Made by a program: the position numbers and the translations under genes | Part shown: piece after piece, positions 7,560-55,119 of the stretch | Numbering within the stretch: the first letter of the stretch is position 1 | How the letters are laid out: every line of letters starts with the position of its first letter | Notes under the pieces: generated by a model | What the model saw: the letters and a program-made list of their open reading frames with translations, nothing else | Told to the model about the DNA's origin: nothing | Database searches by the model: none | From: Lepraria neglecta | Taxonomy: Eukaryota > Ascomycota > Lecanoromycetes > Lecanorales > Stereocaulaceae | NCBI GenBank assembly: GCA_033220425.1 | Contig: CM065653.1 | Coordinates: 3,596,001 to 3,660,000, forward strand | Direction of reading: 5' to 3' | Length of the DNA stretch: 64,000 bases

Positions 7560-7857
7560 CAAACCAACGATCGGCGAAAGGTAGCCAGTCGAGGTAGAGT
7601 TTTAGAATTGGAGCCGAGATTATGATTACATCTGAGCGCCTGGGTCTAGGTTGGCATCGCAATTTTGGCTTGCTATATACCCTGTCTATCCTCCTATGTT
7701 GCTATCCATGTGATCGTCCTCGGTCTGTGAATGTTTATGATATTTCCCTCAGGTGTATTGACTACATAGCGTAGCTCTGGTACGAAGCCGTTAGCCGTGA
7801 AAAACGATAGTCCGAAGCACAAGAGGATGCTTACCAACTCCTTCATGCTTGACCGGT
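7560..7857. other. Intergenic, downstream of DUF3723
   Basis: No gene was recognised. It lies between two convergent genes and presumably holds both 3' ends. A possible 3' exon of the minus-strand gene (ending near 7694, after a gtaagc..ccag intron) could fall here, but it is not in frame with the main exon as read. Confidence 0.4.
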
Positions 7858-14359: not shown

Positions 14360-15507
14360 TCATTGCATACAAATCTCCCTACCCCTATCAATGGATCTCT
14401 CAGTAATAATGACTAGAGGCTTAAGGCAATGGCTCTCCGGTGATTTTTCCAAAAACTCATCCTGTCTAGTCAGAAACCTTACGGAAGGCGACCGGTAGGG
14501 GGTAGACCGTACCTCTTGAAGACTCTCTCTAGAACAGCTGGCCGTCTTTTTTAGAAACTTGACAATCTGCTCGTCCCAGATTTCCGGTTTCTTCAATTCC
14601 AAGGAATCAGGAGCTTGAAGACTAGTATCAAGTTCCATCAACTGGACCATTAGCAGTCCCAGGGCCCGCAAGTCTTCCTGCTCGTTGTGAGAGCTTACGG
14701 TACCCTTTAACATGCTTTGACCGATGTTTGCTGATTGTGTCAGGCAAGGCAAACACGGCTATTGGGTCCATATACCAAGTTTGATATTGCCATCCCTGTC
14801 GACCATAATGCTGTTCGTGTTGATGGAGCCATGTAATATCTTCAGTTCTGTATGGATGTATTGTATACCTTTGAGAACCTAATGGTCGTATTAACGATTG
14901 TCCGGGCCAGCGCGTTTCTGAACCTTACCTCTTTACATATGACTGCAATCTGATACGAGGCCAAGCCACCATACGGTGTCGACTGAATCTCTGCAAGCGT
15001 CACATCCATGCATTCATACAGGAAGAAAATCGTCTCATTATCGATGTAGGCACCGAGTAAGGATACAATATTCTCGTGGAGGCATCCAGCAAGACTCTCG
15101 ACGCAACTGCTTTTTGTAATTTTGGTTTCTCTTATGGCAATAATTGGATGCTCAACCTCCTGTTTATGGGCAATTGTGACTTGGCTACCTTGATCTTCTT
15201 TCAAAATAGTATAACATTCTTGCCAGGGATCGCCTTTGACGCAAACGAAGCCGTATGGAACGGGGACTTGTTTCGGCTTTGAGGTAAACCGAGACCTTGA
15301 AGAATACTGCGATGAGTCTAAGTTTACTGGTAGACGGATGGATGGCGGTCGTGGTCGTTGCTGGTTGTGCACAAATCCAGGAGCCTTGGGTATCTTAGAG
15401 GCAGAGAGTCGCAATGTTTCCTGTCCAGCTACTGCTTGTCGTTTACGAGAGGTATTGATACTGGAATTACCGGGAAATATGGTCGACCGCTTATTAGAGG
15501 AAGCCAT
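14360..15507 (-). CDS. Protein kinase-like protein (predicted pseudokinase)
   Basis: Three exons (15507-14929, 14878-14776, 14730-14360) give 350 aa. After a basic, disordered N-terminus of about 85 residues comes a kinase-like fold: IIAIRETK at the VAIK site (Arg replaces the ATP-binding Lys), ENIVSLLGAYIDNETIFFLYECMD as the hinge region (only LYECMD is the hinge itself), LKGIQYIHTELKILHGSINT at the catalytic loop (HGS instead of HRD) and KLANIG spliced at the DFG position (Asn instead of Asp). All three catalytic signatures are altered, so phosphotransfer is unlikely. Similar HGS/ANIG-type pseudokinases occur in filamentous fungi. The last exon keeps helices (EQEDLRALGLLMVQLMEL) and ends after HCLKPLVIITE. 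No stop was seen. Confidence 0.72.
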
Positions 15508-15859
15508 CTGGAGACCAGGAGGAATTATGATGATCGAACAATCTACTCTTGTATCTTAATCGTTGAGCTGTTGACTATCATATTCTATTTATATCATTGC
15601 TATTCCTAGATTGCTATTTTGATCCTCCTAAGCTCATGCTGGGCGCTTACAGCTTCTTATTTATAATAGCGAATTCCCTTGCCTAGGAGCAACATCATGG
15701 AACGAAACGAAAAACGCAGTGCTGGATAACCTCCAGAGATCACAGATCTAGATGCTCGTATCGCTCGCGCTGGCGGTACATCCTCTCGAATCGAATTACA
15801 GCCTCATAGGCTTCGTCAGACCAAATTACAGCCGTGCAAGTCAACGAAAACCTAACTCG

Positions 15860-16194: not shown

Positions 16195-16575
16195 ATCCTA
16201 GTAAAACTTCAAAGTATAGGGACTTTAAAAGTGTAGGGACCTTAAAAGTGTAGGGACTATTATGCCGTAGGGACCTCAAAAGTGCAGGGACTTTTATGCC
16301 GTAGGCATTATGAAAATATAGGGACTCTTAAAGTGTAGGGACTGTTATGCCGTAGGCATTATGAAAATGTAGGGACTCTTAAAGTGTAGGGACTGTTATG
16401 CCGTAGGCATTGTGAAAATGTAGGGACTCCAAAAGTATAGGGATCTTAAAAGTGTAGGGACTTTAAAAGTATTCTAAAAATATGTTCAAAAGGTGGGCAT
16501 TTGAAATAGGGAAAGTCTAAAAATATCTTTAAAAGTGGGCATTTGAAATAGGGAACTTTTAAAGGGGTAGGCATT
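16195..16575. repeat. Degenerate minisatellite
   Basis: A dense array of the motif gtagggact (with aaag or ccgt linkers). Within it a higher-order unit of 51 bp starting ttatgccgtaggcatt begins at 16294, 16345 and 16396. The right end changes to gtgggcatttgaaatagg units at about 16492 and 16530. AT-rich and non-coding. Confidence 0.85.
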
Positions 16576-17500: not shown

Positions 17501-19244
17501 ATGCGTGATTCAGTCATGGATCCTATTACAGTTTACGGGATTGCTGCTGGCGGCATAGCTCTGATTGCATTCCTCTACAGTACCTCTTCTCATATCTCAC
17601 GATGGATTCAAGACCGCACATTTTTCTACGTTTTCAAGTACTTGATATACCCGATCTTTATCCAACGCAATCGTCTCTTTGCAACTTTTTCGCGCTGGCA
17701 CACGCTTTTGATGATGATATACTGTTCCGGCACAGTAGCCTGCAACCTTGTGGGAGTAGCAACGATCTCGCAGGCCGGGAAAAGGGCTGGGGCTCTAGCT
17801 GCGCTGTATCTCGTACCACTGCTTTTCACGAATCGACCTAGTTTCGCTGCAGATCTGCTGGGCATTTCCGTGCAGAGTTATCTGAAACTGCATAGCTTAC
17901 TAGGTCTTATGACCTTCTTACAGAGTCTGATCCATATAGTCATCTTCTTCACCCGGAATGCTTTTCGAATTGGAGATTCACTGTAATTCTATGGGTTCCT
18001 GGTATGGAATTGCAACAGCGTGTCCGATATTTGCAAACTTACGACTAATGCTGTCCAGGGTGCAGTGGCAATTGCGTCTCTAACGCTTCTATCGACCCTC
18101 CGGATACCATTTTTCGAATTCTTCCAAAAGACTTATTACGCTCTTGCAATTCTCACCGCATACGCAATCTGGCGACATTTATCGATAAAGCCAGCTGTCG
18201 TAAGGATCTACATCATCGTTGCAGGTTTTGCATTCTGCCTTACCACCATTGCTCGCTATTCCAGGCTAGTGGTGCGTAACGTGGTTTGGCGACAACCATA
18301 TACGGCGACCAAGCTCGTCGGAGTACAAGATGTCGTGCGGGTCCAGCTTACTCCCGCTCGACCCTGGAAGATACGTGCAGGGCAGTACGTGTATATCTGG
18401 ATGCCAGGAGTCAGCTTCTGGTCTCCATTTTAAAGCCATCCTTTTATGATAAGTTGGTGGGAACACGATATTCGTGGAAGAGGCACGAACATATATCTCC
18501 TGGTGAAGCCTGCATCTGGATTTACTCAAAAGCTTCTACGACACGCCGGTATATGCGGCCTGAAGGCATGGATTGACGGCCCCTACGGAGAGCTACATGA
18601 TATTGGCGATTATGGCAGCGTTGTAATGTTCGCGAGTGGAATGGGTATAGCTGCATAGGTACCGTATATCAAGGAGCTCCTGAAAGGGTTCCAAGAATAC
18701 AAAGTGAGGACAAAGAGTATATTACTAGTGTGGCAGTTAGATAATGAAAGTGAGTCTTGTTCTTTGATTGGTCGTAGGTCAGTATCGTATACGCTAATTG
18801 GGGCGCTGCAGGTGATGAGAATTGGGTCCAAGAGTGGATGACGCGGCTTCTATCCGAAGACAAAGGTTCCTACGTAAGTAGAAAGACGAAGAAGACAAAG
18901 GAAGAGCACCACTGATGACTTAGGTCCTACGGATTACCTTGTATGTTCTTCGAAATTTCAATGACGAGCAAATCTCATATGGTCGGAAAGAGCAATATGG
19001 TGACCATGAACGAATCAAAAAGCTCTATAGGAGACCTTATCTGGAGAAGATTGTCAAGTCGGAGATAGATGCGAAAAGGGGCCGTTTGGTCATCACAAGT
19101 GAGTGTATAAGCAACTTATGAATCTCTGGTGCTGACCCTGGTAAAGCATCCACTGAATGTAATATGCAAGACCAAATCCAAAGGCTGGCCCACAAATATC
19201 TTGACAAGGACGTCAAGTTGATCCATCTTGCGTTCCAGCCGTAA
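17501..19244 (+). pseudogene. Ferric reductase (FRE), disrupted by three RIP-like stops
   Basis: Five exons (17501-18001, 18059-18749, 18812-18873, 18924-19098, 19147-19244) give 508 codons in one frame. Seen: membrane segments from residue 7 on; heme-ligand histidines in RWHTLL and in LHSLLGLMTFLQSLIH (13 residues apart); the FAD motif HPF; and an NADPH-side WIDGPYG plus SVVMFASGMGIA, ending LAFQP. This is the FRE layout: plasma-membrane flavocytochrome b reducing Fe3+ with NADPH. Three in-frame stops lie at 17984-17986 (TAA), 18431-18433 (TAA) and 18656-18658 (TAG). Each sits where a Gln codon would give CAA or CAG, and the first falls in the usual DSLQFYG segment. All fit CpA to TpA. FRE is one of the signature Starship accessory families. 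Confidence 0.88.
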
Positions 19245-20559: not shown

Positions 20560-21265
20560 GGACTGGCTATGAACAGACAAGAAGGTGCTGTCAAGGGGCT
20601 CTCGAGACGCCCTGCTCCCGAAATAACACGACTGGGATCGTCTCTGATCGAGGGATTGGCCCTGGTACGACGAGAATTGGGCAAGGCGCTTTCCAGGCAC
20701 TCGAGACACGTGCTCCCGAAATAACACGACTAGGATCATCTCTGGTCGAGGGATTGGCCCTGGTACGATGATAATAACTGTGCAGGGCGCTGTCCAGGCA
20801 CTCTCCAGACGCCTGCTCCCGAAATAATATGACTGGGATCATCTCTGATCGAGGGATTGGCCCTGGTACGACGAAAATTGGGCAAGGCGCTGTTAAGGTA
20901 CTCTCGAGACGCCCTGCTCCCGAAATAACACGACTAGACTCCTCTCTGATTGAGGGATTGGCCCTGGTACGACGAAAATTGGGCAAGGCGCTGTCAAGGC
21001 AATCTCGAGACGCCCTGCGCCCGAAATAACACGACTGGGATCGTCTCTGATCGAGGGATTGGCCCTGGTATGGCGAGAATTGGGCAAGGCGCTTTCTAGG
21101 CACTCTCGAGACACGTGCTCCCGAAATGACATCGTCTGGTCGAGGGATTGGCCCTGGTGCGATGATAATAACTGTGCAAGGCGCTGTCCAGGCACTCTCC
21201 AGACGCCTGCTCCCGAAATAACATGACTGGGATCATCTCTGGTCGAGGAATTGGCCCTGGTGCGA
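20560..21265. repeat. Minisatellite, about 100-bp unit, seven copies
   Basis: Seven head-to-tail units share gacgccctgctcccgaaata and gagggattggccctggtacg. The ctcccgaaa landmark falls at 20615, 20713, 20816, 20917, 21018, 21118 and 21210, so spacing is 92-103 bp. Units differ mainly by single bases and by two alternating end types (gacgaaaattgggcaaggcg or gatgataataactgtgcagg). Long frames on either strand across it are by-products of the periodicity. Confidence 0.95.
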
Positions 21266-21491
21266 CAATGATTGCGGATAGTGTGGGCTTCAAGCTTAGC
21301 AATAAGCTGAGACCAGCGTCAGGGGTGGTTAAACAATCGACTGGCTTCTGTTGCCTGCCACTCCCTTCGGTAGTACAGTAAAGATCGATCAGAGCGCTAG
21401 GACACCGTCCAGGCAGCAACTCATCACTTCACATAATAATTTTGAATTTGCCAACATTTCGAAGTGCAAGTCTCTTGGTCCCAGTTATCAG

Positions 21492-22207
21492 ATGCCGCCC
21501 CAACGTCACCGCCGCGCTACTCCAGTATTTCGCCCTCCTCCAGGCTACGAGCGTCCAATATTTCGCGTTCCTCCAGGCTACGAGAGTCCAGGTGATGCTC
21601 AGGGACGAGACAAGAGTAAGTCCGGCTGCTGAGTTGATATTCTTGTTCTAATTCCACAGCAGGCTCGCCGATCCTGCTCGACAATCTTAATGACGATAGA
21701 GAGAAGGGCGATGACCAAAGCACTACCAGTACGCAGAAGCCTGACATCTTAGATGATCCTTTCGCATGGTTGGCCAATGTCTGCGGATATTCAGTATCGC
21801 AGGACTCAGCAACGCTATCAAAACTCGACCAAGGTCTCATGAGGATGATTTCCAGTCGAGATGAGCTTCTCCAGGGTCTCTGGCAATCAGTATACTTCCA
21901 CCGTCAAGAAGCAAGCCAAGCACGCGAAAGTTTGTCTGTGGAGAGTAAGAGATTAGATAACGCCACGAACCTCGTGAGATCTCGTGTGAGACATCAGGTC
22001 GACGAACGAGCACGTCGCGATTTCAGCCAGCGACTTGATCCTCGTTTGACGTGCCCCATATGTTGGGAGAATGACATTGACACCATGACCAACTGTGGGT
22101 ATGTGTTCTGTCAAAGTTGCCTGGTGACGTTGAAAGCAGTCAAAGATATATGTGAATGTCCTCAGTGCAGGAAACAGATAAAGAAGACGCAGCCACTCTA
22201 TATCTGA
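21492..22207 (+). CDS. RING-finger-like protein with a ligand change
   Basis: Two exons (21492-21615, 21660-22207; intron gtaagt..acag, 44 bp) give 223 aa. The N-terminus has a doubled proline/Tyr motif (FRPPPGYERP, FRVPPGYESP). A middle helical region (about residues 60-150) is coiled-coil-like. The C-terminus has CPICWEND, NCGYVFCQSC, then CPQCRKQI: a C3HC4 RING in which the usual His of CGHxFC is Tyr. CAC/CAT to TAC/TAT is a CpA to TpA change, so this may be another RIP-type hit that removes a zinc ligand. Predicted E3 ubiquitin-ligase type; activity is doubtful with this change. Confidence 0.75.
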
Positions 22208-22572
22208 ATAAAGGCTCTACTCAAAATTCGGCCTTATGTAATACTATAGTGCCGAGAATATACGAAGTCAAAGAAGCTCCTGTGAAATGATTATCCCACT
22301 TATACTCCAATTTGTATGAACTCTATATAGAACTCCTAATCTCTTTGAACATGCCGCTCGCTTATGATGACTAAGGTTTTCAGATAATTGCTACCCGACG
22401 AACTGTCCAAGGGAGTACTTAGTCAACAGCGTCGACAATGCAAGCTGTAAAAGGAATCCTTACCTTTAATGAGAATTACGATGGACCTTTCTGAAGAATG
22501 TGTATTGATTAAGACTAGTCTAGGCTCTATCTATGTAATTTCGCCTGCTCCTAATCAATGACTGTATACATT
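22208..22572. other. Intergenic between convergent genes
   Basis: AT-rich, no coding signal; presumably holds the 3' ends of the RING gene and of the GPI-protein gene. Confidence 0.45.
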
Positions 22573-23517
22573 TTAGAGACAGAATAAGAGTAATCTAGCA
22601 ACCAACCAAGTCGAGGACCGATTGGCTACTTTTGTGGCCGATCCCGTAAACGATGTCGGTGCTGCTGTAGACTTCAAGAACCCAGATGATACGTTGGACG
22701 TTGTAGAATACGTGGTAAGTGAGCTGGCCGAAATCTGCTCCTTTGATACTATTCGGGTGGGTTGTAGCTGTGTCGAGGTAATCCCAGTGCCACCTGAAAC
22801 AGTCTTGGTACGAGACGAGATCTCAATCTCAATACGGGTTGAGACCTCGTTGAGAACTTGGGAGCCGGGCAGGGTCGGGGCTAGGGGCATTCCGCTTTTC
22901 GAAAAGGTCCATGATCCGTTGGAAATAGATCCTGAGGTCGGTGCCAACCTAGAGACTCCGCTAGCCCCACCAATAGCGCTACCAGTAGGTTGAAAGTGGA
23001 TGGCGCCGCCCCCTGTCGCTGCTGTTCCCGCTATCGTCTTCCATGGTAGAGTAGTTGCACCGCTAGTAAGTAGATTCGAGTTCGGAGAGTTCGTCTGAAG
23101 GCCGCTACCTAACAAAGATAACTGGTGCGTAGAGAAGGGTCGTGTTGTTGCTGCACCTTCGAAGAGTAACGGTGCCATCCTACTACTTGGGAGTATTAAA
23201 GGTGATGTAGTAGTGCCGGAGTGAAAGGTTACACTAGAAGACTCCACCGTCGCTGTAGGGATAATGCTAGAAGTCGAGGACTCGTCGCTAGCGACGCTAC
23301 CCAGAGTTAATGCTAACGCAAAGTTCCCAATACCGCTTGCCGAATTCGTATTATCAATATCGCCACTGTAAGTTGTTGTTAGCTTGCACAAGGTTGTTCG
23401 TGAATCCAATAAATATTACCTTCCAAGAGCCTGCCCAGCAAAGCTAACTTGTCCTACTGTTTGCCATGAAAATAGTAGTATTAATAGTGAAGCCAAAGAC
23501 TTCTTCTGTAAAACCAT
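22573..23517 (-). CDS. Secreted Ser/Thr-rich protein, probable GPI anchor
   Basis: Two exons (23517-23420, 23365-22573; intron gtaata..acag, 54 bp) give 296 aa. Residues 1-23 form a clear signal peptide (MVLQKKSLASLLILLFSW). The mature chain is rich in Ser, Thr and Gly with no folded domain visible, as expected of a heavily O-glycosylated wall protein. The C-terminus ends in a hydrophobic stretch (STWLVARLLLFCL) after a small-residue region, the layout of a GPI-anchor signal. No enzymatic motif. It is probably a cell-wall or plasma-membrane surface protein; family not recognised. Confidence 0.72.
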
Positions 23518-23985
23518 TATGAATGTTTACTGATTGCTGTGTTTGAATGATAAATCTTTTGCGTTTTCAGAAAGTAAAGATAGTGTAATGAAGCCCGCTT
23601 GAGAAAAGAATAGTTAATAATCTAACGAGTAAATAAGAGATAAATAAGATAGCTTCTAGATGCTAAGCTAGCGTATAAAAGTGAAAAGAAAAATACAAAT
23701 ATAGAAAAAGATAAAGATATTTATGAGGAGAAAGGGGAGGGGGGAGGGGGGGGTGTCTTTTTTTAGCAAGCTAAGGGGGGCAGTCTATTCTGAACGAGTT
23801 TCTTCATTTAAGCTACGTACGTTCTATAAAGTAACGGCGTTTTCCGAGAGTTTAGTATAGTATAAACGCACAGTCTTCGCCTGTTGATCAGGAAGTTTCT
23901 ACAAAGAGGCGATAGATTCTCGAATTAAGCAATCAGATCGTGAAATAAGATCCAACTACCGTTATCATCAAAATCTATACGCAAG
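23518..23985. other. Intergenic, AT-rich with poly-G tract
   Basis: A G4-A-G6-A-G8 run at 23734-23753 sits in otherwise AT-rich sequence between two divergent genes, in the region where both promoters must lie. Four G blocks would permit a quadruplex. Confidence 0.6.
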
Positions 23986-25524
23986 ATGACGCCGGTACCA
24001 AAGTCAGGGACGAAGGCCAAAGCAAGAGATATAGCAAAAGAGATGGTAAGAGGAAAAGCAGAAAAAGCGAAAAGGTTGGACGTCATCAAAACCTCTAAGG
24101 CCAAGAAAACCACCGAAAAGCAGAGTATCGACGAGCAGATAGACAAGCTAAAGAAAGACATCGCAGCAATTTCTGCCGTTGAGCTCGAGGACCCCGAAAA
24201 AAAGAAACACTATGATGATCTTAAAGAGCAGCTAGAGTCCCGATCTATACTTTTGAAGGAGTTTGAGAGTGTACTAGAGTAACTCAACAAGGAAGCGGAG
24301 GATGTCGAAATGGAAGACGCAGAAGACATAAAGCAGGAGGAGTCTTCTTCACCTCCGGTAATCAAGATTTCGTCTGAAGCTGACGGCAATGACATCTCGA
24401 ATCCATTCGATCTAACCGATCTGGGAGCTGAGGTGGATTTACTCAAGCCTCAAGAGACATAACCTACGGCAGGATTACTAGATCCAGACAAATACCGCAA
24501 ATTAATGGTGACTAAAGGGGCTCCGGGAGGGGGAAGAATAGGTATTGTCGGATACGGACCACAGAATGCATCGATATTCAGGCGAGAAATGCTTGCCGAA
24601 GGAGAGGACTTAAACGGTGTCGTAGATATCTCGGAGGCTAAGTTGCGCATCGGAGAAGGGGCAGACTACGTTCAAGGCAAAAAGGTTTGGTGGGTTTCTC
24701 GTCGTAACATCGTCTCGATCTAAGGTATAGCGATTCCAGAGTCAGCCAGCCTGAAAGATCTCGACCCTGACCGCAAAAGCGCCCGTGATCTATGGATCCC
24801 CACGGACATTCTTATCAAATGGAGTAAAAATGGGAAGATTCTCAGGAGTTGGGAAACCAGGGCGAGCTTTAGAAGAGTATGGGGTAAACAGGGAGACGGC
24901 CCAGATTGGGCTATCTTTGATGCAGCTAAGTATGCCGAGAGTCGATTCAAGCAATGGAAGAAGGGCGCGCGACCGGCTCTAAGCCGGTCAGTAACCCCAA
25001 ACCTAGAGTATATAGCGGATATGGAGCGAGAAAAGGCCAAGAAACGGGCATTAAAACGCAAGGCCAAGAAACGAGGGAAAAAGGGCACACGCAAGTCTAG
25101 AAAGTTAAGAGATGATAGTGATGACAGCGATGATAGCGACGACAGCGATGACAGCGAGAGTGAGGACGACGATAGCGCGGGAGGCAGACATAAGAAAAGA
25201 GGGAAGAGCAGCAAACGCAAGTCTAGAAAATCAAGGGATGACAGCGATGACAGCGACGACAGCGATGACAGCGATGACAGCGACGAGAGTGAGGACGATG
25301 ATAGCGATACGGGCGGCAGATATAAGAAAAGAGGGAAGAGAAGCAAACGCAAGTCTAGAAAGTCAAGGGACGATAGTGATGACAGCGATGTCAGCGACGA
25401 TAGCGACGTCGATCCCAAAAAATTCAAAAAATCGTGGTGCTACGTCAACGGCAAGGTTTCCGGTCATTTGAGCAAGAAAGACCAGCTAAAAATGAAGAGG
25501 GCTTTGAAGAAGGCGAGGTCGTGA
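23986..25524 (+). pseudogene. Lys/Ser/Asp-rich protein gene with three in-frame stops
   Basis: A single frame of 513 codons from ATG 23986 to 25524 is interrupted by TAA at 24280-24282, after PQET (about 24459-24461) and after RRNIVSI (24721-24723). Register is kept across all three; each could be CAA changed to TAA. The N-terminus is a charged coiled coil (IDEQIDKLKKDIAAI). The middle looks folded (APGGGRIGIVGYGPQNASIF, VWWVSRRNIVSI, LIKWSKNGKILRSWETR). The C-terminus has three KKRGK...KRKSRKS blocks alternating with Asp-Ser-Asp runs, ending WCYVNGKVSGHLSKKD. Family not recognised; composition suggests a nuclear or chromatin-associated protein. Confidence 0.6.
25105..25410 (+). repeat. Asp-Ser-Asp coding repeat
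   Basis: Near-perfect gatgacagc/gacgatagc 9-bp units encode DDS runs, arranged in two long blocks and one short block separated by basic segments. The larger unit is about 125-130 bp. Confidence 0.85.
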
Positions 25525-27109: not shown

Positions 27110-30100
27110 TCAATGGCTTCCTCTTCTGCGACCCTTGACACCCCGCTTGATATGACGAGAGGTCCGTTGACTTTGATTCGCCGTTGGCTTTGGTTGACTT
27201 AATCGTAGTACGATCCTGGGCTTAGCTTGGCCGACTCGAAGCGTGATGCGAGGTTTCTTGGTATTGATAGGGATGTCTTTCGCGCTCGCAGTGCTGCCAT
27301 CGCTCGGATCTACTAGATGAGCTCCCTGATTCGTGGAGAGGCGAGTATCACCGATAGTCATGGTATGCGAAAGTGTGCTCTTGGTGTCACTATTGCAGTC
27401 GTCGCCAATCTCTTTTGCGGAGGAACATGATAGGGATCGGGAACGTAGGTATAGAGAGAATAAAGCGTCTTTATCAGGCGGAGGGAGCTTCCCTTTATCA
27501 GTCTCAGACAAACTTGTTGACCACTCAAGCTCGCCAGGCGGTTCTCGGCTGAACTCGCCTGTCATGAACAGCTCATCAGTATCTGGAGGTGACGTGGCCT
27601 CGCTATAAGTTAATCCCGGTAGATCCTGTAGGCTGTCCTTGGCTGTCGTATCAGTGGAATCGGCCTTGGACAAGAGGTGTGAAGATGTAAGGCAGATGCC
27701 GTTCGGAGTGGTTTCGATCAACAAGGGCGGAGGTGTCTTAATGCTTCGATTTATCTTTCGGGCGTACTTGATTCGCTTCGGAGGCTGTAGCTCGTGCTCT
27801 TGCTCATCTCTATTCTTGTTCTGCCGCTTCTTGCCTGCGGTGCCAGGTGTCCATTCGACGAAAGGGTCCCAACTGGGCTCTGTGTGCTCACCTATAGCTA
27901 GTTTTAGGCGCATCTGGAATAGGTGCACATCGCGCATATGGTAGCCAAAGGACGGTCTATCTTTAAGCTGCAGCGTGTATAAAGGATGAGGACATGGCAA
28001 CGGCCAACGGGACTTTTCTAGATGTTTTCCGAGATGGGTCCTTAATGCAGCTTCTCTGGTCCAGGAGCACAATCTCGATGATGGCTCGGCGTCGTGGTCA
28101 CCTATGCAGAAAACACAAAAGGCAGGACGGAAAAGTGTATGGCAGAGGGTGATAGACCCGCACCGCTTCGAAGTAATCGACTCGAGGTGCGTTTGGCAGT
28201 ACTGACCCCATTCTTCTTCGACAAACCAATCGAAGCAAGCGAAGCAATATTTCAATTCGGATTACAGTCGCTCGAGGTTATACGCCAGCTGTTTGCGACA
28301 GTAGTTGTGGGTGTGTATGCTCCGTTGAGGTTTGCGTAGACTGCGACCGTTAGACTTCTACCAATCCGACGGACTATAAGGATTATACCTCATCATCTCC
28401 ACACCACAGCCCTCCACGGGGCAAATACCCTCGACAGGTTTCTCTCCAGGTCGGTATAAGATCGTGGAGTCTTGAGATGCAAGGGTACACAGATCTTCGA
28501 TGGCTTGTCTTCGTTCTTCCTCGGATACGACTTCATCTAAGACTATCATCTTTGTAAGGCGATGGCGTTCTGGCATTACTCGTGAGAGAATCTCTAAGAG
28601 GTCTGTTTGTTTCTCATCATCGGGACGCTCCTTCCCGCAGGTCGTGATTTTCCAGTCCCGCCGCTGCCGGACCCATTCGAGTTTATATTGCTGCAAAATC
28701 TTCTTTGTGAGGCTAGCTCGATAATTACGGACTTTGTTTTCGGCCGCTTTGATTTGGGAAGCAGTACCATTTCTTTTCTTGAGCCGGTAGACTTCGCTTT
28801 CGAATTCCAACAGTTGTGGATCCCGTCTAATCGCATCTTCTTTTTCGGCTGGTAGTTTGGTGGGAAGGCCCTTTTCGCGAAATTTGGCAAAGGATTGGAA
28901 ATAGTCAACGTGATCGTGTTGAGCAGGCTCCTTGTGGAAGGCCGTTTTTCCACAGCAGGAAGAGGTATTCGCCACGTAGCTTGAGCCGTAGACACGAGGA
29001 TCCTTTTGGGTGATATGCTGGGATCGTTGGACCTCCGTATACCTCTCTATACGGTTTATTCGTCAGCGAGAGGGACAAAATTATATCAAGTTTGACTTCA
29101 AAACCACTTACCGTCGAGCATCTTTGCCAGGTAGCGGCGTATGGCATGAACTGTAGCATTGCCAAAGTATCCCGAGAGGTTCAATACAGACTTGACAATG
29201 CTATCGAAGGTGCTCTTCAGAAGCGGATCTTCGGTGACACCCCGTTGCTTAGTGGCGTTGCGGAGTATGGGGAGAGTCTCTACGGAATCATTCCATGGAA
29301 CGATGAGCTCGTCTTCGCCTGGAGGTATTTGTAGCTGCCATAGATCTTTGAATGAATCTATGCCCTTAATAGCATTGTCTGCGATAGCTAAAGCAAGTAG
29401 ATACTGGGTATCATCGTAGAGCAGCTTGCTGTGTTGACTGGTAGACGCACTATACCTTCAAATGTAAATCTTTATTAGTGAATATATATAAGACAATGTA
29501 GAGAGGACATTACGTAGTATTCTCGGGATCACGGTTGTTTTTCACCCAACGCTGGTCGATCCGATATATCGCCTTCCAACCACCACTGGGGATCCGTTTC
29601 AGAACGAGGTCAATATCCTGTAAGGAATCAGCGAATTTCCCCCTCAAATCGTTCCAGGGAGATATACCCGGTACCGAAGACCCCCTTTATCTTTGTTCTC
29701 CTTCTCTGGGAAGAAGGCACTGATTCGTGCTCCTGTCCAGCAGAAGACGGCAATTATAAAGGGAATTTGAACTTTATTGCGTGGATGGATGAATTGGGTA
29801 TCGTCGACAGTCCAGAATGTGATAGTGAACTGAACTAGCTCCTTTTGACCGAACAAGTACTTCGGCTTCTTCTTGTTCACTACTAGGCCATCTTTAGTCA
29901 GGGTATCCCTGATCCACTGATAAAGTTCCTTTTAGCTATGGGGACAGTATCTTGTACTTTGGTATGTACTTACATCGTATACCGCACTTCTATCCTCCTT
30001 ATCGACACAGTTACCCGTTACTCGAGTGAATCCAGTAAAGAACCACTCCGTAAAGGTTTTCATTGAATCGACGGTGACCTTTTTCTGTCCGTCGATAATT

Positions 30101-30570
30101 CCCTGGCTGGTCGAGATAATAAAGCGAAGGAAGTCCTTGATGGTGACAAGATCTAGAGGGGGTAAACCTTCTCGGAGACTCCGTGATCTAACGGTATAGG
30201 AGACGTCGACCGCGGCATCGTCACCAAAAAGTGCCTCTCCTGTATCCTGTTCCGGCTTTTCGACAGCAAATACCCATCTGCTCAACTAGGTAAGTATATA
30301 TCTTGTGATAGGGGACCGAGCCTACGTTTGTACTCACTCCTTATAGCGTCTTAAAGCAATATCCTGATTCCTCAGGGTACTCTTGACATACTTTGTATTG
30401 TTCCTCTTGCTATCCTCTTCCTGATGAGCTCCCTGCTTGTAGCCGTTGGCTGTAGCTCTCTTCAGTAGCTCTGCTGGCGACACGTCGTTCCGGCCTATGA
30501 CCGTATGAAATAGAGAGAAGAGTCGAGGATAAGTGTGGGGGAGATAGTGGTCGTAATCTGTGGGTCATAA
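27110..30570 (-). pseudogene. DUF3435 tyrosine recombinase (Starship captain), two in-frame stops
   Basis: Exons: about 30567-30338 (preceded by an unresolved first exon), 30277-29974, 29916-29668, 29617-29514, 29455-29112, 29046-27110; exons 2-6 with the two bases carried over give 980 codons in frame. Seen: NTKYVKSTLRNQDIALRRYK then WVFAVEKPEQ at the N-terminus; catalytic Arg in FCWTGARISAFF; HAIRRYLAKMLD (His-x-x-Arg box); catalytic Tyr in DPRVYGSSYVANTSS; then DYFQSF, WVRQRRDW, and ILYRPGEKPVEGICPVEGC. A Cys/His C-terminal region follows (KYCFACFDWFVEEEW, SKRCGSITLCHTLFRP) and a basic tail. Two stops, TAG at 28358-28360 and TAA at 28262-28264, separate the recombinase part from the zinc-binding part; both fit CAG/CAA to TAG/TAA. 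Captains cut and integrate the whole Starship. The catalytic part is otherwise open. Confidence 0.92.
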
Positions 30571-30722
30571 GAGTAAGAATTGAAGAGCCAGGATGGGCGG
30601 CGCACCGCTCCCTGTTATACCCCACCTCAGCGGCCATCTCTGAGACCCCTGAGGTGGGCTGTGTGAGAGCGCGCGCTTTTTTTGGAGGCTCGAACGAGGG
30701 GTTCTTAGTGAGTGGAAGGAAA

Positions 30723-30800
30723 GGTGAGCGCGAAGCGTTGATCACCCAGTCGGGGTGTTGGATCACCAGGGAGGGGTGCCGCATCACCCCTGCTCACCCA
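30723..30800. repeat. Cluster of short inverted repeats next to the captain
   Basis: The hexamer GGGGTG and its complement recur: CACCC-AGTCG-GGGTG (30743-30757), GGGGTG-CCGCAT-CACCCC (30773-30790), with further TCACC or GGTGA copies at 30723, 30763 and 30794. It lies upstream of the captain, where Starship 5' termini carry recombinase-binding repeats. Whether these are such sites is inference. Confidence 0.5.
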
Positions 30801-31144
30801 GCTCCCTCGCTAAAGCGGCAGGGCCCGCGCGAGCTTCCACTGAGCTCGACGCAGATTTCTGTTGTCTTCTATTGCCAAGACTTGGCGTTTTTCATAGGTT
30901 TCACTTGGCAGTTGCTGAATCCCAGGTTACACTCGGATTCGGACTACATCGGAAGGGACAAGCCCTGAACCTTCTCGGAACCATGGACGAGGACTCAACC
31001 TTGAGGAATTTGAAGCCAGTGCATGCCACGGCTGTACCGTTTGCCCGCCAACGCAGTGACCAGGCGCGAGACCAGCGGTGAGGGCCCCAAGAGCCAGAGC
31101 TTCCCACCTCTTACGATACTACTGTATTAGCAGTACCCGCCAAA
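30801..31144. other. Probable element edge and methyltransferase promoter
   Basis: About 340 bp between the inverted-repeat cluster and the methyltransferase ATG. The Starship 5' boundary should be here or slightly to the left. A 33-codon frame from an ATG at 30984 is not convincing. No duplication of a target site could be identified without the other end. Confidence 0.5.
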
Positions 31145-32289
31145 ATGGAGCAGCATATTGCCCCGAGTAATTCAGAGCCTCGAGATCCGCTTCTCACTCG
31201 CTCCCCATCTACTGGCATCGGCGATGAATACAAAATTCCACCTCCAGCTTCCACCTCGTTTAGTGTGCTGAAAGATCGTATCAAGCAACACTACGAGATC
31301 TGCTCTGATTACTATTACTCGCTTTGGTAGGTATGCATCCCTGTGCACTTGGACCATTCACTGACCAACAGGGGCGAGCACATCCACCATGGCTACTTCC
31401 TCCACCCTGAAGACACGAAAGAGCTGGCCCAAACTCGACTCATAGACCTCTTGCTCGAAACCTCCAATCTAGCTCGTGGAAGTAGCGTACTCGACGTTGG
31501 CTGTGGAATAGGTGGCACGACACGATATCTGGCGAGGGAAAAGGCGTGCAATGTCACTGGCATCACCATCAGTGGGCAGCAAGTGAAGATGGCGAGACAA
31601 TTGACGGCAAAGGAGGCCGCCAGTGGAGGACAAGACACTGATGGGGCTACACCTGTGAAGCTGAATGACGGAATAGTACGTTACATGGAGCTTGACGCTG
31701 AGAAAATGGGAGACTTCTTCAACAAGGCTACATTTGATGCTGTCTGGATATCGGAAGCGATGAGCCACTTGCCTGATAAAGAGCTTTTCTTTCGCAATGC
31801 GGAGACTCTGCTAAAATCAGGCGGCAAACTTGTAGTAGCGGATTGGTTCAAGGGGGAAGACCTGACCGAAACGCAAATGGACGCGGACATCAAGCCCATT
31901 GAAGGTCAGGGCAGTTCCTGTCCTACCGTAGATATTTTACTGATTGTTCTCGAAGATGGAATGCTGCTCCCAAGCTTGTGTACAACATCGGACTACGTCC
32001 AATATGCACAGCAGGTCGGGCTGAAGGTTTTTGCAAAACCCATCGATATTAGCAAAGAGGTGTCTAAGACTTGGTAAGTCGATACCTTGAGTGTAATACA
32101 ACGCCACTGCTCATCATGAACACTATGTACAGGGACATTTCATGGTCGCTCATCCAATCGCCTGCGCTGTGGGCCTTTGCCTTTTCTCAAGGCCGAGATG
32201 CAATAGCATTTTTGCAAGCTTTTCGAGCAATGAGGAGAGGTTATGCGAACGAGACCTTTCGCTATGCTGTAATGGTCTTCCAGAAGTGA
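31145..32289 (+). CDS. SAM-dependent methyltransferase (class I)
   Basis: Four exons (31145-31326, 31372-31904, 31956-32073, 32133-32289) give 329 aa. Motif I is VLDVGCGIGGTTRYLA; motif II region is YMELDAEKMGDFF; motif post-II is FDAVWISEAMSHL; motif III is LKSGGKLVVADWF. The general plan resembles small-molecule C-, N- or O-methyltransferases of the UbiE/tocopherol/sterol type. No signal peptide; cytosolic. It is the first gene beyond the captain and heads a run of P450 genes on the same strand, so it may have acted with them on a secondary metabolite. The substrate cannot be predicted. No disruption seen, but its upstream region is only a few hundred bases from the transposon edge. Confidence 0.85.
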
Positions 32290-32882
32290 CAGCAAGCATG
32301 TGTCCGCATGTATCACATACCATCACCAATCCAACTAAGAATGTGAGAGAACGATGTTTTTGGTCGAGCCTTGGTGATCTAAAGTTTTCATAGCCCGTCA
32401 TAATAGCATGCCGTTGAGCATCTAGGAAAGTTCTAGATGCAATGGCGTTTTGGACAGAATAGCCTTTCAGTTGACTGGGGCTCCTGCAAGGGTATAGACG
32501 TACAGGCCGAGTGCTTACCACGCTCAAGAACAGCCACAAACTAGTCGAGGGAACGCATAAAAAGATCGTTCCGTCTGCAAGACATTATTTTCGGCCCATT
32601 GAATTCTTGATATAGAGTCGTCGGTGGTGTGAGCGATCAATTGCACTGATTGCGTGACTGGGATGCCTAACGGCCTTCTCTCCAAATCTAACTCGGTTGT
32701 GTGGTTCGACCTGCACCTGGACGCCCGATGATAGGCATGCTGAACACCATCACCTGCTTATACGTAGGCGAGCTGAGCCCATTCAGAATGCCTTATCGCA
32801 AATTCGGCCCCAATGTTCTTTCACATCACACCTCTGTCCAAAGGCTGAGAAACACAGGTGTATTGCTTTCGAGCAAAGCACA
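32290..32882. other. Intergenic, no gene recognised
   Basis: About 600 bp between the methyltransferase and the decayed P450, presumably the 3' end of one and the promoter of the other. A 12-bp direct repeat (tagaaagttctagatgc-like) lies near 32422. Confidence 0.4.
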
Positions 32883-34590
32883 ATGATCAACCTTCCAATT
32901 TCGCCTGCCACTTCGGTGGTCGTATTGGTTGGAGTAATCGTGCTCCATACCGTCGTGACTGCAATTTATCGCTTGATTTTTCATCCTCTGGCTGGGCTTC
33001 CTAGTCCTAAGTTGGCTGCTCTTACAAAGTGGTACGAATTCTATTTTGACCTTGCAAAGGGCCATGGCGGACAATTCGCGTGGGAGATTAAGCCCGTGCA
33101 TAAGGTGTATGGTACGTCGAGATCTCTGCAGTATCTCTGCGACAGTCAAAGAGTGCGATGCCCATTGATCAGGGCCAATTGTCAGAATCAACCCAGAAGA
33201 ACTTCATATAGAGGATCCTAATTGGCATGAGACTCTTTACGCGGGCAATCCTACGAGAAGGGATAAATGGCCAGTAGCAGCTAGGATGGCTCGCTCAGAC
33301 CTAGGAAGTAAATGGTGACTGGCTCCGACATCGGATCCAGCTTAGAAGCTGATTTGGTTCCTGGTGATACATAGCTTTTGGGACTGTCCAGTATGACCTC
33401 CACCAGAAACGAAGCGCCGAGAACAGTCGGTTCCTCTCTGGCCGTGCCATAACCAACTCGGAACGCATCATACAAGCCCAAGCGCAAACTCTGTCGAACC
33501 TTCTTCAAGGTTGCTTTGAGAAGGGCGAAGTCATTGAGCTTCGTAAGACGCTGTTGGCGTACACTACCGATTCGGTAGCTCGATTTGCGCTTGGTGATTG
33601 GTTGGGTCTCCAGAACAACTAACGACGAGCGGATGAATGGTATCAAACAATACGCGCCGTTGCATTGAGCACTCCTTTGGTGAAACACTTCCCTTGGGCA
33701 ATGCCCTTGGCTCAATGGTTGCCTGTGAAACTGGTCGGCCTTGTCCAGCGGCAGTTGGCGAGACTGTTGCTTGTACACGATGCGAGGATCCACACAGACA
33801 TGCGCCTAGAAATGGGCCCGGCTGACAGGATCAATCATCGCCACAGGACGTGCACCCCGCAGCCCGCCGCTACTAATCGAGGGACCAAAAAGAAGAATAC
33901 AACTACATCGATACTCACATTACCCATGCCGCTCTTTTCTCATCTATTTGTGAAAGCTCTCTGCCAGCTCCTGAGAAGGATGCGAAGCGCCTAGCTCACG
34001 TACGCTTCGTGATGATTGTTACAGGGTGAGAATCAACGGCCCGGATATTAAGGATAGCAATATTTCACATCTTGTCGAATGTTGATGTACTGAGGCGCCT
34101 ACAAGACGAAGTGGTGACGGCCATGCCGGATGTCTCGAAAATGCCATCCATGAAAGTTTTGAAGGAGCTGCCTTATCTGGTATTGTTCCGAGCTCTTTTG
34201 CCTCTTTCGTCAATTTGGTACTTGACCACTAACTTAGGGATTTAGACCGGAGTCATCAAAGAAGCACTACGCCTATCGGCTTCCGTTACATCGAGAAGTC
34301 TTCTGTTGGCTCACCAGGAGTTATCATACAAGACATACGACGAGCTTCCTTCTATCTAAGCTTCTGTCATAATTTTCCTAGAGTGGTGATAGCTGACGAT
34401 GGTATCAGATTTGCATATGCTGAATTGTTTCTGGCCTTAGTAGTCGTTCGGTGGTTTGACTTTCGGCTTTTTGGTACCACTTGGGAACGCAATATTGATT
34501 CTGTGCGAGACTGCCAGAGTCATCCCGAGGGGCAGAATGGAGATAGTAGGACTTCGACCGTAGGAATTAGCTATGGGAATTGGTCGCTGA
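32883..34590 (+). pseudogene. Cytochrome P450, decayed
   Basis: The 5' end is clear: ATG 32883, a membrane anchor (VVVLVGVIVLHTVVTAIY), then RLIFHPLAGLPSPKLAALTK and YEFYFDLAKGHGGQFAWEI, typical of fungal microsomal P450s. The frame then moves repeatedly: [20 protein letters not shown] at about 33190, KHFPWAMPLAQWLPVKLVGL at 33680, LSNVDVLRRLQDEVVTAMPD at about 34080, GVIKEALRLSASV (the ExxR helix) at about 34250. It ends with LFLALVVVRWFDFRLFGTTW at 34410. Several frameshifts and stops are present, and the heme-binding Cys loop is missing between the ExxR part and the final segment, so about 100 residues are deleted. Not functional. Confidence 0.82.
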
Positions 34591-35307
34591 ATTGAGCTAC
34601 CACTGGAATCTAGGGGCGAGCTATCCGGGTACTTTCCGCTTGAAAAGGCTCTCAAGGTAAATCTTCGGTAACTCTTCTATTTTCGGCCGGAGCACTATCC
34701 CGTGCTCACCTTCGCATTCAAGGACTGTTGAAGCTGACATTCGCTCTTGCCACACCGCCATCAAGAGTTCCTCCGAGAGCAGCTCGCCTCATTCGGCTAC
34801 GTTTTAAGGCCGAGGGGACATCAGGCGGGAAGGGACGCGCAACTCTTCGGTTCCGCTTTCCAAAACTGTACACTAGCCAATCAACGAATCATTTGTTATG
34901 CACACCGCCGATCTATGCATAGTGGTTGATAACAGAACTGAAGGAATCCCGATCAGCTCCCTGGCATGCATATCGACACTTGCAAGGTAAGCTTACTGCA
35001 TAAACGATGCGGTGTGGATCTGTCAGTATTAGACTGCTAGTCTCGTTGCCTATTTCTTAATGCCTAGTCTTCGTCGTATCTCGCAAGAGTTCTTTGTATT
35101 AGGTAGAGGCTAGTTAGCACAACACGGAAAGCCCAGAATTATCTCTGCTTACATCAGCGTAATGGCGTCTCACTCAATTTTACGAGACAATTGTCCGGCT
35201 TCGTATCAGCGTTGTATCAGCAGCCAGAGCGTTGTTTATAAAATCGCCCTTTTCCTTTTCTGCATTTCTCGTCTCTTGCAAATTCCTTTGTACCGAATCC
35301 CGGCACA
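34591..35307. other. Intergenic, possible gene debris
   Basis: A short frame at 34747-34929 has some protein character (HQEFLREQLASFGYVLRPRG) but cannot be assigned. The right end holds the promoter of the intact P450. Confidence 0.4.
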
Positions 35308-37097
35308 ATGGCTCTCAGTCAATTGACCCAATGGTTCAGTCTCGCACTACTGGCCGTAGTGATCCGATTCGCATCTTTTCGTTACGTCTATGGAGTTCAG
35401 AAATTTAAAGGCCCTCTGTTGGCTTCTTTCACAGATTTCTGGAGATTTCTACATGCCTATCGTAACAATTTGTTCCCATCGCGACATTTGCACGAGGAAT
35501 ATGGCGATGTGGTGCGAGTAGGCCCGAACGCACTTTGCTTTCGGGATCCGCAAGCAATCAGAGATATCTTTGGGGCTGGAAAGAATTGGGAAAAGGTATT
35601 TCAACCTCCAAGAAGTCGGTCAAAGTTACATCTACTGACCAAGTCTTTATGTTCGAAGTCAGGACTATACGCTCCCAGCGCCCCTGTCTCTAGAGGAGAA
35701 TGGGCGCACACCTTGTTTTCGAGTCCAGACCAAACATGGCATCGGAACGTTCGCAGAGCCATGAATCCATTTTTCTCCCAGACCACAGTAACTACGTACG
35801 AGCCACTCGTGGAATCAACGGTCGAGCCTTTCTTGGCGGAACTTGAAAATCGTTTTGCCAACAAGGATGGTGATGAAGGCTGTGTGGACGTGTTTACCTG
35901 GATGACTTATTTCACCTTCGATGTGATGAGTGATTTGACGTACAGCCAACGCCATGGATTCATTGCACGCGGTGAGGACGTTCACGGCATAATAGGTTGG
36001 GTAGAAAAGTTTCTGGCATATGGCTTCTGGGTCAGTCCAGTGCTCTTCTCTTTCTTGCACTGCGCTCGTCACGACTAACCAACCCTTCAGGCGGGTCAAA
36101 TGCCATGGATCGATAGGCTTTTCAGGCACAACCCGTTCCTCATGTGGCTTGAGAGGCGCGGATGGTACGCCGGCAATACCTTTCCCGGCGCCAGATTTGC
36201 CCTTGAACGACTTGCAGAAAGAGAACAGGAGGAGGCCATTACTGGAAACGATACCAAGAAACGTGAAGACCTGCTTGACAAGTTCCGCAAAGCTAAGAAA
36301 GAACGGCCGGAGCATATCACCATCAGAGAAGTTTTGGGCCTTAGTCTGTCGACTATCATAGCCGGTTCAGAGCCAAGGTGAGTGCTACTCATATCACGTC
36401 AACAATAGAAGCTAACCTCTCATCCCCAAAGCGCGGTCAGTCTAACCTCGATATTTTACTATGTGCTACGCACACCGGGCTGCTACGACAAGCTCCAAGA
36501 CGAGCTATTCACCCGCCTCCCAAACCCAGCCTCCTCGAAATATCCTCAGACCCCCTTCACCATTGCTCGCTCGCTTCCATATCTCCATGCCTGCATTCAA
36601 GAAGCATTCCGTCTACACCCTCCTTTCGCCATCAATTTCGAACGCCTCGTTCCGCAGGGAGGTGCCACCATCTGCAACCACTACATTCCCGGCGGTACGA
36701 TCGTTAGTGTGAATCCATGGGTCACGCAGCGTGATAAAGCTACATTCGGAGACGATGTGGATGATTTTAGGCCGGAGAGGTGGATGACACAAGATGAGGA
36801 GAAAGTTAGAGCAATGGAGAGGGCAATGTTTCTGTTCGGAGCAGGGAGTCATATATGTTTAGGCAGGAACGTTGCGCTGATGGAGATTTATAAGCTTGTT
36901 CCTAGTTTGCTGAGGATGTTCGAGGTGCGTGGTTCTCACTTATTATCTTTTTGATTAGATGGCACTGACCAACTCTCCTTCTGTCATAGATTTCGATGGT
37001 GGACCCTAAGAAAGAGTGGACGGTCGATACTTGGGCCGTTTCGAGACAGAAGGGTTTCGAGGTTCGGATCAAGAGGAGGTGGAACTTGGAGAAATGA
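35308..37097 (+). CDS. Cytochrome P450, CYP57 (pisatin demethylase)-like
   Basis: Five exons (35308-35595, 35659-36030, 36091-36377, 36432-36924, 36990-37097) give 515 aa, the normal length. Seen: N-terminal membrane anchor; WxxxR-type helix C (WHRNVRRAMNPFFS); I-helix IIAGSEPSAVSLTS, in which AGSEPS stands for the usual AGxDT; ExxR as EAFRLHPP; PERW as FRPERW; and the heme loop FLFGAGSHICLGRNVALMEI with the thiolate Cys. The overall pattern resembles the pisatin-demethylase group of fungal P450s. Endoplasmic reticulum monooxygenase needing a P450 reductase; substrate unknown. All introns are 54-65 bp with good signals and no stop is present. It lies downstream of the methyltransferase and the decayed P450 on the same strand. 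Confidence 0.9.
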
Positions 37098-41163: not shown

Positions 41164-44100
41164 TTGGATGTCTTGGCTCTGGATTGACTGTGGTTGCACG
41201 AGAGGAGTAATGTCTTTTCTTCGGATGGACTCTCCATGATCTCGCTCAAAAGAAACGCACATCGAATTTACAACATAGCCTCAATCTATCTGTCAGTCAA
41301 CGGATACGCATAGAATGCAAGATCGTCGACAGCTCTAGCCTTACCGGTCGGCTAGTTATAGGCAGAATTTCATGCATGTTTGGCGGCATTGGCAAAGCCC
41401 TTGTTGAGAGATGAGATACAAGCGCCATTGCTCCTTCCCCAGTTCAGGTCACTGCCGCCCCAGTGGGCGCTATAGCGCAATGATCTGCTTGTCAAATATC
41501 CCACGGGTTTGGTAGTCCAAGCAAGTGGCGTCTTAGCCATCCTGGATTCGACATACGCGATGCGAAAAGTTTCAAGTATGACGAGTGGCCCATGCATTGT
41601 TCCTGGCACATGTTGATCATCGATCCGAATAATAAGTAGCTTTCTGCTAGGAGATTTTGCGGCAACGAACTTTCACAATAAGGTAAGGAACTTTGATAAT
41701 GCAGTGAGAACAGGCTGCTGTTGGCATAACCTCTCTCATTATCACTTCACAGCATACTATCTCATGGCAACATAACTCCTATCGTCTTTGCGCGCGGCTG
41801 CTACCTTGTTTAATTAAAATGGCCATGCCTTCAGGCGAGTTGCTGAGCCCCGTTGTCATAATTTCTCCAATCCATCTACGCTTGTCGCGCTATTGTCAGA
41901 GCGGCTCGTGCGCATCTTTCAATGACTGTCTTCGAGGCTGCGGATGGAAGTCCACACTAGCGCTAGAAGCTGCCAATTGATATGATGAGCACGCTTTGGA
42001 GGATTGGATGTTGGGAAAGGAGTTCACCAGAGTGGCCGACTTGATGACTAAGCGTTCCATCTTGGCGCGTTCAAAGACCAACATAAGAAGCTTCACTTAT
42101 CTACTGCTGACAACCAGGCGACTGCACGCCTCTCGTGAGAATAGCCTCCTATTGCGGACCGCTGTCCAGAAGCTCCAGCGCTAGTACTCAAGTCGGGTGG
42201 TCCTAAGTTGAAGGAATCGGCCTCGTCTAGCCAGCCTACCTCCTTCAACCGATCGATACTTGTGCCCCGCCTTTTTTTTCTACCTTCGCTTCTTGCCGCT
42301 GCGAACTGGGGAACGCAACCCGTCACTGCGGAGCTGGGACACAGGCAGGATCGGTGAACATGATCAAGGACAAGAGAGAGCTATTCCCGAATGGATGAGC
42401 AATACATGAAAGGATACATATCGTGTGAAGACCGACGGAAGGTCCGAGGCGCCAACTCGAAATCTGATCAGGCGTTACTCGCTATATGACAACCGTCCTG
42501 GAGGCGCTTTGTGCATACATAGGCACTTGTAAGCCGTCTCCTTGGGGGGAAGAATTGTTGTGCCCTGGTCTGATTGACAGCTCCACGATGATGAGCCTAG
42601 CAAGCGCACACTTTGAGTTCTCCTGGTAATAGTGGCTCTTCCAGAGGACGAGATTGCCTCGTGGTCTCACAACCATACATTCACATCTACCATGACTTAA
42701 TCAACATCGGATCTACATTCATGAGAAGATTGCCAGGAGGTCTGGCTTATTCTGAACAAAGGCTCTAGTTTTGAACTGCTGGCCTTTAGACACTGGTTAT
42801 CTCGCACCCATGATTTGGATCGGTGGGCAGGCATGGATCTTGGAGGAAATGGAATTTCAGAAGCAGAGAGATTGTTGAGAACAGACCGTTTTCTCTGTGG
42901 GTCCAAATCTCATTGAAGCGTGCCGAAGAAATACACAAGTTGAGACGCTTGATCTCCGTTGTACAAGAGTACAGGACCTGCAGTAATGCGTTTCATGAGC
43001 TCACTAACCGAGCTCTCACTCCCATGATCAGACATTGCCTTCAGGCGCAAGCCAACGAGACGAGAGAGCGTGGTGTTCATGAACAATGTTCTCTCCCACT
43101 CTGAAATGTCTTGTTCACCCTTACCGTTGATCCATAGCCTCCTCGCCAACGGAATTCAGCTCTTCTCGACTGCCCATACTTCGTCCCCGTATGGTAGATA
43201 TACTAAGTCGCGGATTTGATAACGGCATCTCTTCTCCCGGCAGTGATTCACCGTGTCCTCAACTGTATGGGCAAGACACCTGCAATCCTTCACCTAGAGC
43301 TGGTTGGCTACGTACACAATATTCTTCACCGTCTTATGAAGACTTTGACTATTTGAATCGAGGAATTCACAGATTTATTCTGTAGATTCTCAAGCCAGCT
43401 CGCATCTTCATGAAGGAACCACGGTTTCACAAGGTGAAGGCCAACCCTTGACATTGAATCGGTCTTCACATGTTTTCAAATCCATTATCGAGTAGGAAGA
43501 TCGTGTTCACGCTCTTGAATTTACTAGATAGTATTATAGGAGAAAGTGACAGAAATGCTCGCACCCTCCCAAGCGTTCACCCGGCTTCCACGATACCGTC
43601 ATTCATCAACATGTGTTATCATGTCATAGGCTCTTTTGTGCATATAAACGCCATCCCCAACCTGTAGAATTACAACATTGTCAGCAGAAGCTTTATATCT
43701 TACCAACCTCCATCGAGATTGTCTTGGCACTAATTGATAGCGGTACTCTTCGCGCTTTGACGTTGCGACTTCCTCAACTTCTACACAAGTAACAGGAAAC
43801 CACGCCCCTGCTAGATACACGTCATTGATGTGAGTCACTAAGGTCGAGCTACTAAGCAACTATAGTCTTCACACAACACAAGCTCAAGTCGGTCAGCCAC
43901 ATCGCTTGAGCTTCATTTGGCCAACACAAATCAGATTCACTCACGATTCGACGTGAATTAGGTTGAACCCCCCTGCCAGCATTCGCCACTTTGCACTTCT
44001 ATAAGTACCTTCGGCCCTCCCTCTTTCCCACCACCTCCACCACTCCTTCCGCGCCTCTGTCAACATCCACCGCATTACAAGACTGCTCTGACAGACGACT

Positions 44101-44495
44101 TGTCATACGAGGCTCTCCACTACTTCTACCAACAGATCACACCCCAGCACCAGCGAGCATGGCTGCTGCAGGTCTACCGCTTCGAAGCCGCTCTCTCTCG
44201 GTCAATGTCGGTTACGGATCCGTGGAGTGACAAACCGGCCAAGCTTCTTCTACAATCACCTCTACTTGTCCCTCAGGCTCTCCAAAAATGCAAAGTCTGC
44301 CTTCACGGATCCTCTGCCGAACAAAGACACAATTGCCTCAATCGCAAAGACCGATCCTAGTTCTTATATATGTCAGGCCTTCAAGTGACTCGCGTTCTTC
44401 AATATATGGAGACACTACTTGAGAGTCGATGAGAGCATCACTCTTTCCTATTCTCCAAGTCCACCTGAAGTCAATACCTCCCACCTTCAGCATCT
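41164..44495. other. Long gene-poor stretch, 3.3 kb
   Basis: No gene can be named. Weak candidates are a minus-strand frame 43149-42910 (ARRLWINGKGEQDISEWERT, amphipathic) followed by another at 42906-42697, which could be exons of one decayed gene, and a minus-strand frame 43859-43599 (WFPVTCVEVEEVATSKREEY). None has a recognisable motif. Confidence 0.4.
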
Positions 44496-44864
44496 TTGCC
44501 GTCATCTCTAGTACGAGCTCCTAATCCGGAATCTTATTCCGAAAGCAGCCCAACAGACACCCGCTTCTCTATCGCACAGCTCAACACGTTCCAGACCAAG
44601 CAGCAAGCAACCAAGCGGAAAATCGGCGGCATGAGCAATCTCAACGTACCCAGCGTCCACGGTATGCCAGCCATCAAGAACGCCGCCTCCACTGAACCAA
44701 CCCCAGCTGCAGCTCAAGCCTCGGACCAAACCTCTCCTCAAAATACCTCATCACAAGGTGCGACATTTACATATATAAACCTGCCGCAGAGCGCACATCT
44801 CCTATGCCCCAACTCACTCAAATCAACATACTCACCTCCAACGATATGGAGAAAACAACACTAA
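44496..44864 (+). CDS. Hypothetical protein fragment
   Basis: An open frame rich in Ser, Thr, Pro and Gln; the first ATG is at 44631 (MSNLNVPSVHGMPAIKN). It is low-complexity and disordered-looking. Real coding is possible but unsupported. Confidence 0.25.
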   Translation: MPSSLVRAPNPESYSESSPTDTRFSIAQLNTFQTKQQATKRKIGGMSNLNVPSVHGMPAIKNAASTEPTPAAAQASDQTSPQNTSSQGATFTYINLPQSAHLLCPNSLKSTYSPPTIWRKQH

Positions 44865-55096: not shown

Positions 55097-55119
55097 AGGG
55101 TTCTGTTATCCGTGCTCAG

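Follow-up and report, generated by a model that had tools for sequence, protein, structure and literature searches.

What does the left half of this 64,000-nucleotide stretch of Lepraria neglecta DNA (the window, hereafter) represent and, if it belongs to one of the Starships, the giant cargo-carrying transposons of the Pezizomycotina, what condition is that Starship in? Our analyses lead us to favor the reading that it is the 5′ part of a derelict Starship, to which we assign a probability of roughly 0.78. The reasons for calling it a Starship and those for calling it derelict come from different features of the region, and we consider them in turn.

The captain gene and its predicted active site

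The gene on which the identification turns lies near the middle of the window:

28262-30562, minus strand: captain, catalytic part (defined by splicing and motifs; PF11917, E = 1.1e-31)

A sequence-only reading of the window had described here a minus-strand protein with TGAR, HAIRR, YGSSY, PVEG/Cys and C-terminal Cys/His blocks assembled across five introns. All but the last of these can be located in a spliced reading of 651 residues, running from 30,562 to 28,262 on the minus strand, but to read through the PVEG/Cys block and its follow-on requires six GT-AG introns, each of 48-65 bases, that join seven exons (30562-30338, 30277-29974, 29916-29668, 29617-29514, 29449-29112, 29046-28389 and 28340-28262). 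The search against the DUF3435 profile (PF11917) that had been set as a check on that reading was passed, as the spliced protein matches profile positions 3-356 of 418 with a score of 110.7, where the cut-off is 25.8 bits, a match far above chance level. No other Pfam family matches the 651 residues at E up to 1, and among PDB chains the captain sequence has no convincing relative (best E = 0.27). The DUF3435 tyrosine recombinase by which a Starship is recognized is present at this locus.

The motifs place candidate catalytic residues at R240 (the end of TGAR), H395 and R398 (HAIRR) and Y430 (the end of YGSSY), with PVEGICPVEGC as the remaining landmark. The H395-R398 spacing of 3 and the R398-Y430 spacing of 32 equal those of H289-R292-Y324 in Cre, the H395-Y430 spacing of 35 equals that of Y381-Y416 in HhpA (it is 34 in Sanctuary), and the offset between R240 and A243 is that between R260 and A263 in Sanctuary (residues of Cre, HhpA and Sanctuary as given in excerpts of PMC12506042). 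This agreement suggests that the nucleophile is Y430, the latter of the two tyrosines in YGSSY. The R240-H395 distance is 155, versus 164 in Sanctuary and 116 in Cre, and K285 falls three residues short of the Sanctuary Lys offset, with the identity of the catalytic Lys uncertain. Judged by motif spacing, the predicted site has the R, HxxR (or YxxR) and Y of a Starship captain at captain spacing. Such an enzyme would cut and join DNA at short direct repeats via its R...HxxR...Y active site, and the segment that it would move runs leftwards from about 30.6-31.1 kb.

Neighboring genes and the edges of the element

What lies on either side of the captain? The features that bear on this question are as follows:

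1395-4634, minus strand: patatin-like phospholipase (PLP) gene of several exons, last junction uncertain (PF01734)
4791-7559, plus strand: DUF3723 gene (PF12520), introns 5266-5321 and 5621-5681
17519-18760, plus strand: ferric reductase-like (FRE) gene, start and 3′ end partly modelled (PF01794, PF08022)
21638-22207, plus strand: RING-finger gene, probable cargo (PF13445, E = 2.4e-07)
30569-31144, no strand: interval between the captain and the methyltransferase start, expected to hold the 5′ edge
31145-32077, plus strand: methyltransferase gene, taken as host flank (PF08241, E = 1.3e-18; first intron 31327-31371)

The accessory families named for Starships in excerpts of PMC12506042 and PMC12134995 are FRE, PLP, DUF3723 and NLR, and three of these four, which are common but not obligatory in Starships, are found leftward of the captain. 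The DUF3723 gene is fully open across its two introns and matches PF12520 over profile positions 1-507 of 508 (E = 8.4e-153). The joined PLP exons match PF01734 with E = 1e-10, in a part that precedes the uncertain junction, and the transmembrane part of the FRE gene matches PF01794 with E = 5.5e-07, while a PDB search with the ferric-reductase piece gave nothing convincing. Pfam scans (at E limits of 0.01, 0.1 or 1, varying by frame set) covered 50 of the window's 61 frames of at least 140 aa, together with some shorter frames, and detected no NLR. A codon-usage gene finder was dropped because it found only five frames.

Several other features of the left side were also recorded. Neither a candidate Myb/SANT gene (11.7-12.1 kb, E = 0.17) nor a candidate kinase gene (14.8-15.6 kb, E = 0.073) was accepted; the minus-strand frames at 14360-15555 do resemble a protein kinase, with the Pkinase value of 0.073 belonging to 14842-15555 and nothing found for 14360-14758. 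The frame at 531-911, which in its appearance resembles the start of a MULE-type transposase, has as its sole Pfam match AFT, at E = 0.016 and below the AFT cut-off. One tandem array, at 20582-21266 inside the presumed element, has a 101-base unit in about 6.9 copies with 81% matches, and another, at 16211-16470, has nested periods of 17, 51 and 85 bases. Plus-strand frames at 24463-25524 are Lys/Arg-rich, with Ser-Asp repeats and a 132-base tandem repeat, and have no Pfam match.

To the right of the captain the content is of another kind. The methyltransferase, which is open once its first intron is spliced, is divergent from the captain and starts 577 bases from 30,568. Beyond it lie P450 segments (35,242-36,954), an AMP-binding gene, an MFS transporter and a short-chain dehydrogenase, as well as a piece at 54988-56711 that has PP-binding and NAD_binding_4 (reductase) domains and the tail only of an AMP-binding domain; this last resembles the end of an NRPS-like enzyme and is perhaps a remnant. 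By eye, the frames at 32658-33994 seem to be fragments of a disrupted P450 gene, and Pfam gave no match for 32658-33221 (E up to 0.01) or 33623-33994 (E up to 1). None of the frames scanned to the right of the captain belongs to a Starship accessory family.

Together, the match to DUF3435, the spacing of the active site, the three accessory families leftward and the divergent methyltransferase rightward lead us to conclude that the left half very probably belongs to a Starship with its 5′ edge between 30,568 and 31,145, and the probability that the Starship call itself is correct is high. In this the sequence-only reading is borne out, both in naming a Starship, as DUF3723, patatin-like and ferric-reductase genes adjoin the DUF3435 gene, and in having its 5′ end face right, as the captain reads leftwards and, among the frames scanned, accessory families occur on its inward side only. 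Starship-type genes extend over 1,395-30,562, or about 29 kb; if they belong to a single unit, it would exceed the length of at least about 15 kb expected of a Starship. The single mobile element of 31 kb in the sequence-only reading is a candidate only, with no left end found in the window and a right edge bracketed to about 0.6 kb.

Where exactly would the element begin and end? Since the methyltransferase is divergent and no accessory families were found beyond it among the frames scanned, the 5′ edge should fall within 30,569-31,144. The distance of about 350 bp between the Sanctuary captain and its element edge (from an excerpt of PMC12506042) is compatible with this interval. Upstream of the captain there is an imperfect inverted repeat at 30606-30673 (28 nt arms, 71%) and, at 30723-30798, a cluster of the motif TCACC/GGTGA whose five copies in 120 bases are the densest in the window, a density reached in none of 60 Markov shuffles; as the motif was chosen after inspection, we treat the cluster as a lead only. 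Between the 5′ interval and bases 1-1,394, inverted matches extend to 11 bases at most, a length reached in 20 of 200 shuffles and so not above chance, and searches for terminal inverted repeats within 1-9,000 and within 30,300-31,200, each separately, gave nothing above chance. Neither a left end of the element nor the flanking direct repeats of Starships, which are often accompanied by terminal inverted repeats, were identified in the window. The Hephaestus motif TTAC(N7)A was dropped as an edge marker (88 matches on both strands, three near the 5′ interval). We likewise set aside a tRNA or 5S rRNA gene as the insertion site: the window yielded no tRNA (with a bacterial setting) and nothing from Rfam at gathering score, in searches by which a partial gene could be missed. 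Searches of the collection viral_contigs gave no relatives of the captain, its tail, the DUF3723 gene or the right-half AMP-binding gene, and a search of genome_contigs gave none of the captain; as both collections are non-fungal, these results say little.

Condition of the captain and competing explanations

Is the captain intact? The sequence-only reading had taken it as one continuous protein carrying all of its blocks, and on this point our results diverge from it. An in-frame TAA at 28,264-28,262 (minus strand) ends the reading upstream of the Cys/His tail, and exon 1 contains no in-frame ATG; with these two defects the gene as sequenced is not the intact captain expected of an active Starship. 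The tail itself follows directly:

27110-28261, minus strand: open frame after the stop, probably the former captain tail (383 codons, Cys/His motifs)

Captains often bear such a Cys/His tail. The frame opens with C-x2-C-x12-C-x2-H, with more Cys/His pairs beyond, and since the longest ORFs of 40 Markov-shuffled windows measure 158-302 aa, every one shorter than its 383 aa, it is probably real coding sequence. Position and motif make it probable that it was once the tail of this captain, and sequence searches with it gave no hit in Pfam (E up to 1) or in the PDB. Could splicing bypass the stop? The stretch from the TAA to the tail's initial C-x2-C contains no AG, the nearest AG past the stop being 47 bases from the start of the TAA, and therefore splicing cannot remove the stop and retain the C-x2-C. 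When the one-intron 5′ arrangements that would supply an ATG were enumerated, none had, in our judgement, a convincing splice-site pair.

Stops also interrupt the FRE frame, at TAA 18431-18433 and at a TAG at about 18659. The PF08022 (FAD-binding) match is broken at the former, with pieces on either side that end at profile position 48 and resume at 50, each weak singly and under the curated cut-off (E = 0.0027 and 0.11). That two genes have stops in otherwise open frames and that the DUF3723 gene is intact suggests that this copy is mildly, and perhaps recently, decayed. We considered repeat-induced point mutation (RIP) as the source of the stops, which are of a type that transition decay can make, but the indices do not indicate heavy RIP and are not generally raised: the composite value is -0.16 over the captain, falling to -0.33 over the left half and -0.59 over the right half, and of the 32 windows of 2 kb, those with a positive value are 22,001-24,000 (0.21) and 44,001-46,000 (0.04).

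The element presumably moved at one time, and its captain gene as written would now make at best a catalytic core that lacks the C-terminal Cys/His tail, a part that the enzyme presumably needs. As there is such a core at best, and no clear start codon, the element probably cannot move itself and would be stranded. Counted against the derelict reading are that the DUF3723 gene is fully open, so that decay is uneven, that the captain stop may be a sequencing error, that RIP indices are not generally raised, and that an edge, repeats, a left end and an NLR were not found in the searches above and the tail matches no family.

An opposing view is that the Starship is intact and possibly active, its stops being sequencing or assembly errors and its first coding exon lying farther upstream than 30,568, across an unusual intron. 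A single stop in the captain, a tail open for 383 codons and an open DUF3723 gene would all fit, and several one-intron 5′ arrangements are possible on paper. Error less readily accounts for three independent stops, however, all of them in frame and spread over two genes of one segment; the 5′ arrangements rely on poor splice sites and no acceptor skips the captain stop without loss of the C-x2-C, and so we consider an intact element unlikely. That the element edges were not located could instead mean that the DUF3435 gene is an orphan, a relic or nested insertion in an older mosaic region and not the captain of its neighbors, and such genes are abundant, as surveys leave 10,628 orphan captain-like YR genes beside 143 Starships (in an excerpt of PMC12289983). 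Yet three accessory families occur in the adjoining 30 kb, and the scanned frames show them inward of the gene and nowhere else, so that we give an orphan rather little credence.

A Crypton is a small element without a large cargo, and here large Starship-type cargo adjoins a captain whose sole Pfam match at E up to 1 is DUF3435. Tyrosine recombinases are common to Cryptons and Starships, though very distantly related (according to an excerpt of PMC12134995), but that a Crypton or another small tyrosine-recombinase transposon accounts for this locus is hardly credible. The derelict Starship, then, remains our preferred reading, and it admits one extension that we offer as a long shot: the truncated captain might still be made as a tail-less core that acts in trans, blocking or helped by other captains, with the TCACC cluster as a putative subterminal binding site for full-length captains. 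If this were true, a Starship could shift from selfish mover to regulated passenger.

Significance and comparison with known elements

Our study adds one probable, mildly decayed Starship adjoining a metabolic gene set, and it illustrates that motif reading by itself makes a captain seem more complete than it is. The lesions of this copy are few and its stop falls precisely where the catalytic core gives way to the Cys/His tail, so the locus would be a natural case for asking what part of a captain is required for mobility.

The element is probably a new, decayed member of the already known Starship superfamily. Like the Starships Sanctuary of Bipolaris sorokiniana and Hephaestus of Paecilomyces variotii, it has a DUF3435 captain that reads inward from the 5′ end, with a predicted active site of Cre-like spacing, and it shares with Starships of this type DUF3723, FRE and PLP accessory genes. 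At the HxxR position its captain has a His, as does Cre, whereas HhpA and Sanctuary have a Tyr, and, unlike those of Sanctuary and Hephaestus, it has a stop before the Cys/His tail and an exon 1 that lacks an in-frame start. Cryptons, the tyrosine-recombinase transposons first found in fungi, have recombinases that are very distant from the present captain (from an excerpt of PMC12134995). Derelict Starships with degraded captains have been described, and those of Aspergillus nomius and A. bombycis combine, as here, genes of Starship type with an adjacent captain that is not intact (both in the excerpted text of PMC11623301). The present element was identified by its accessory genes and not by a resistance cluster and, in contrast to those derelicts, its RIP indices are not generally raised.
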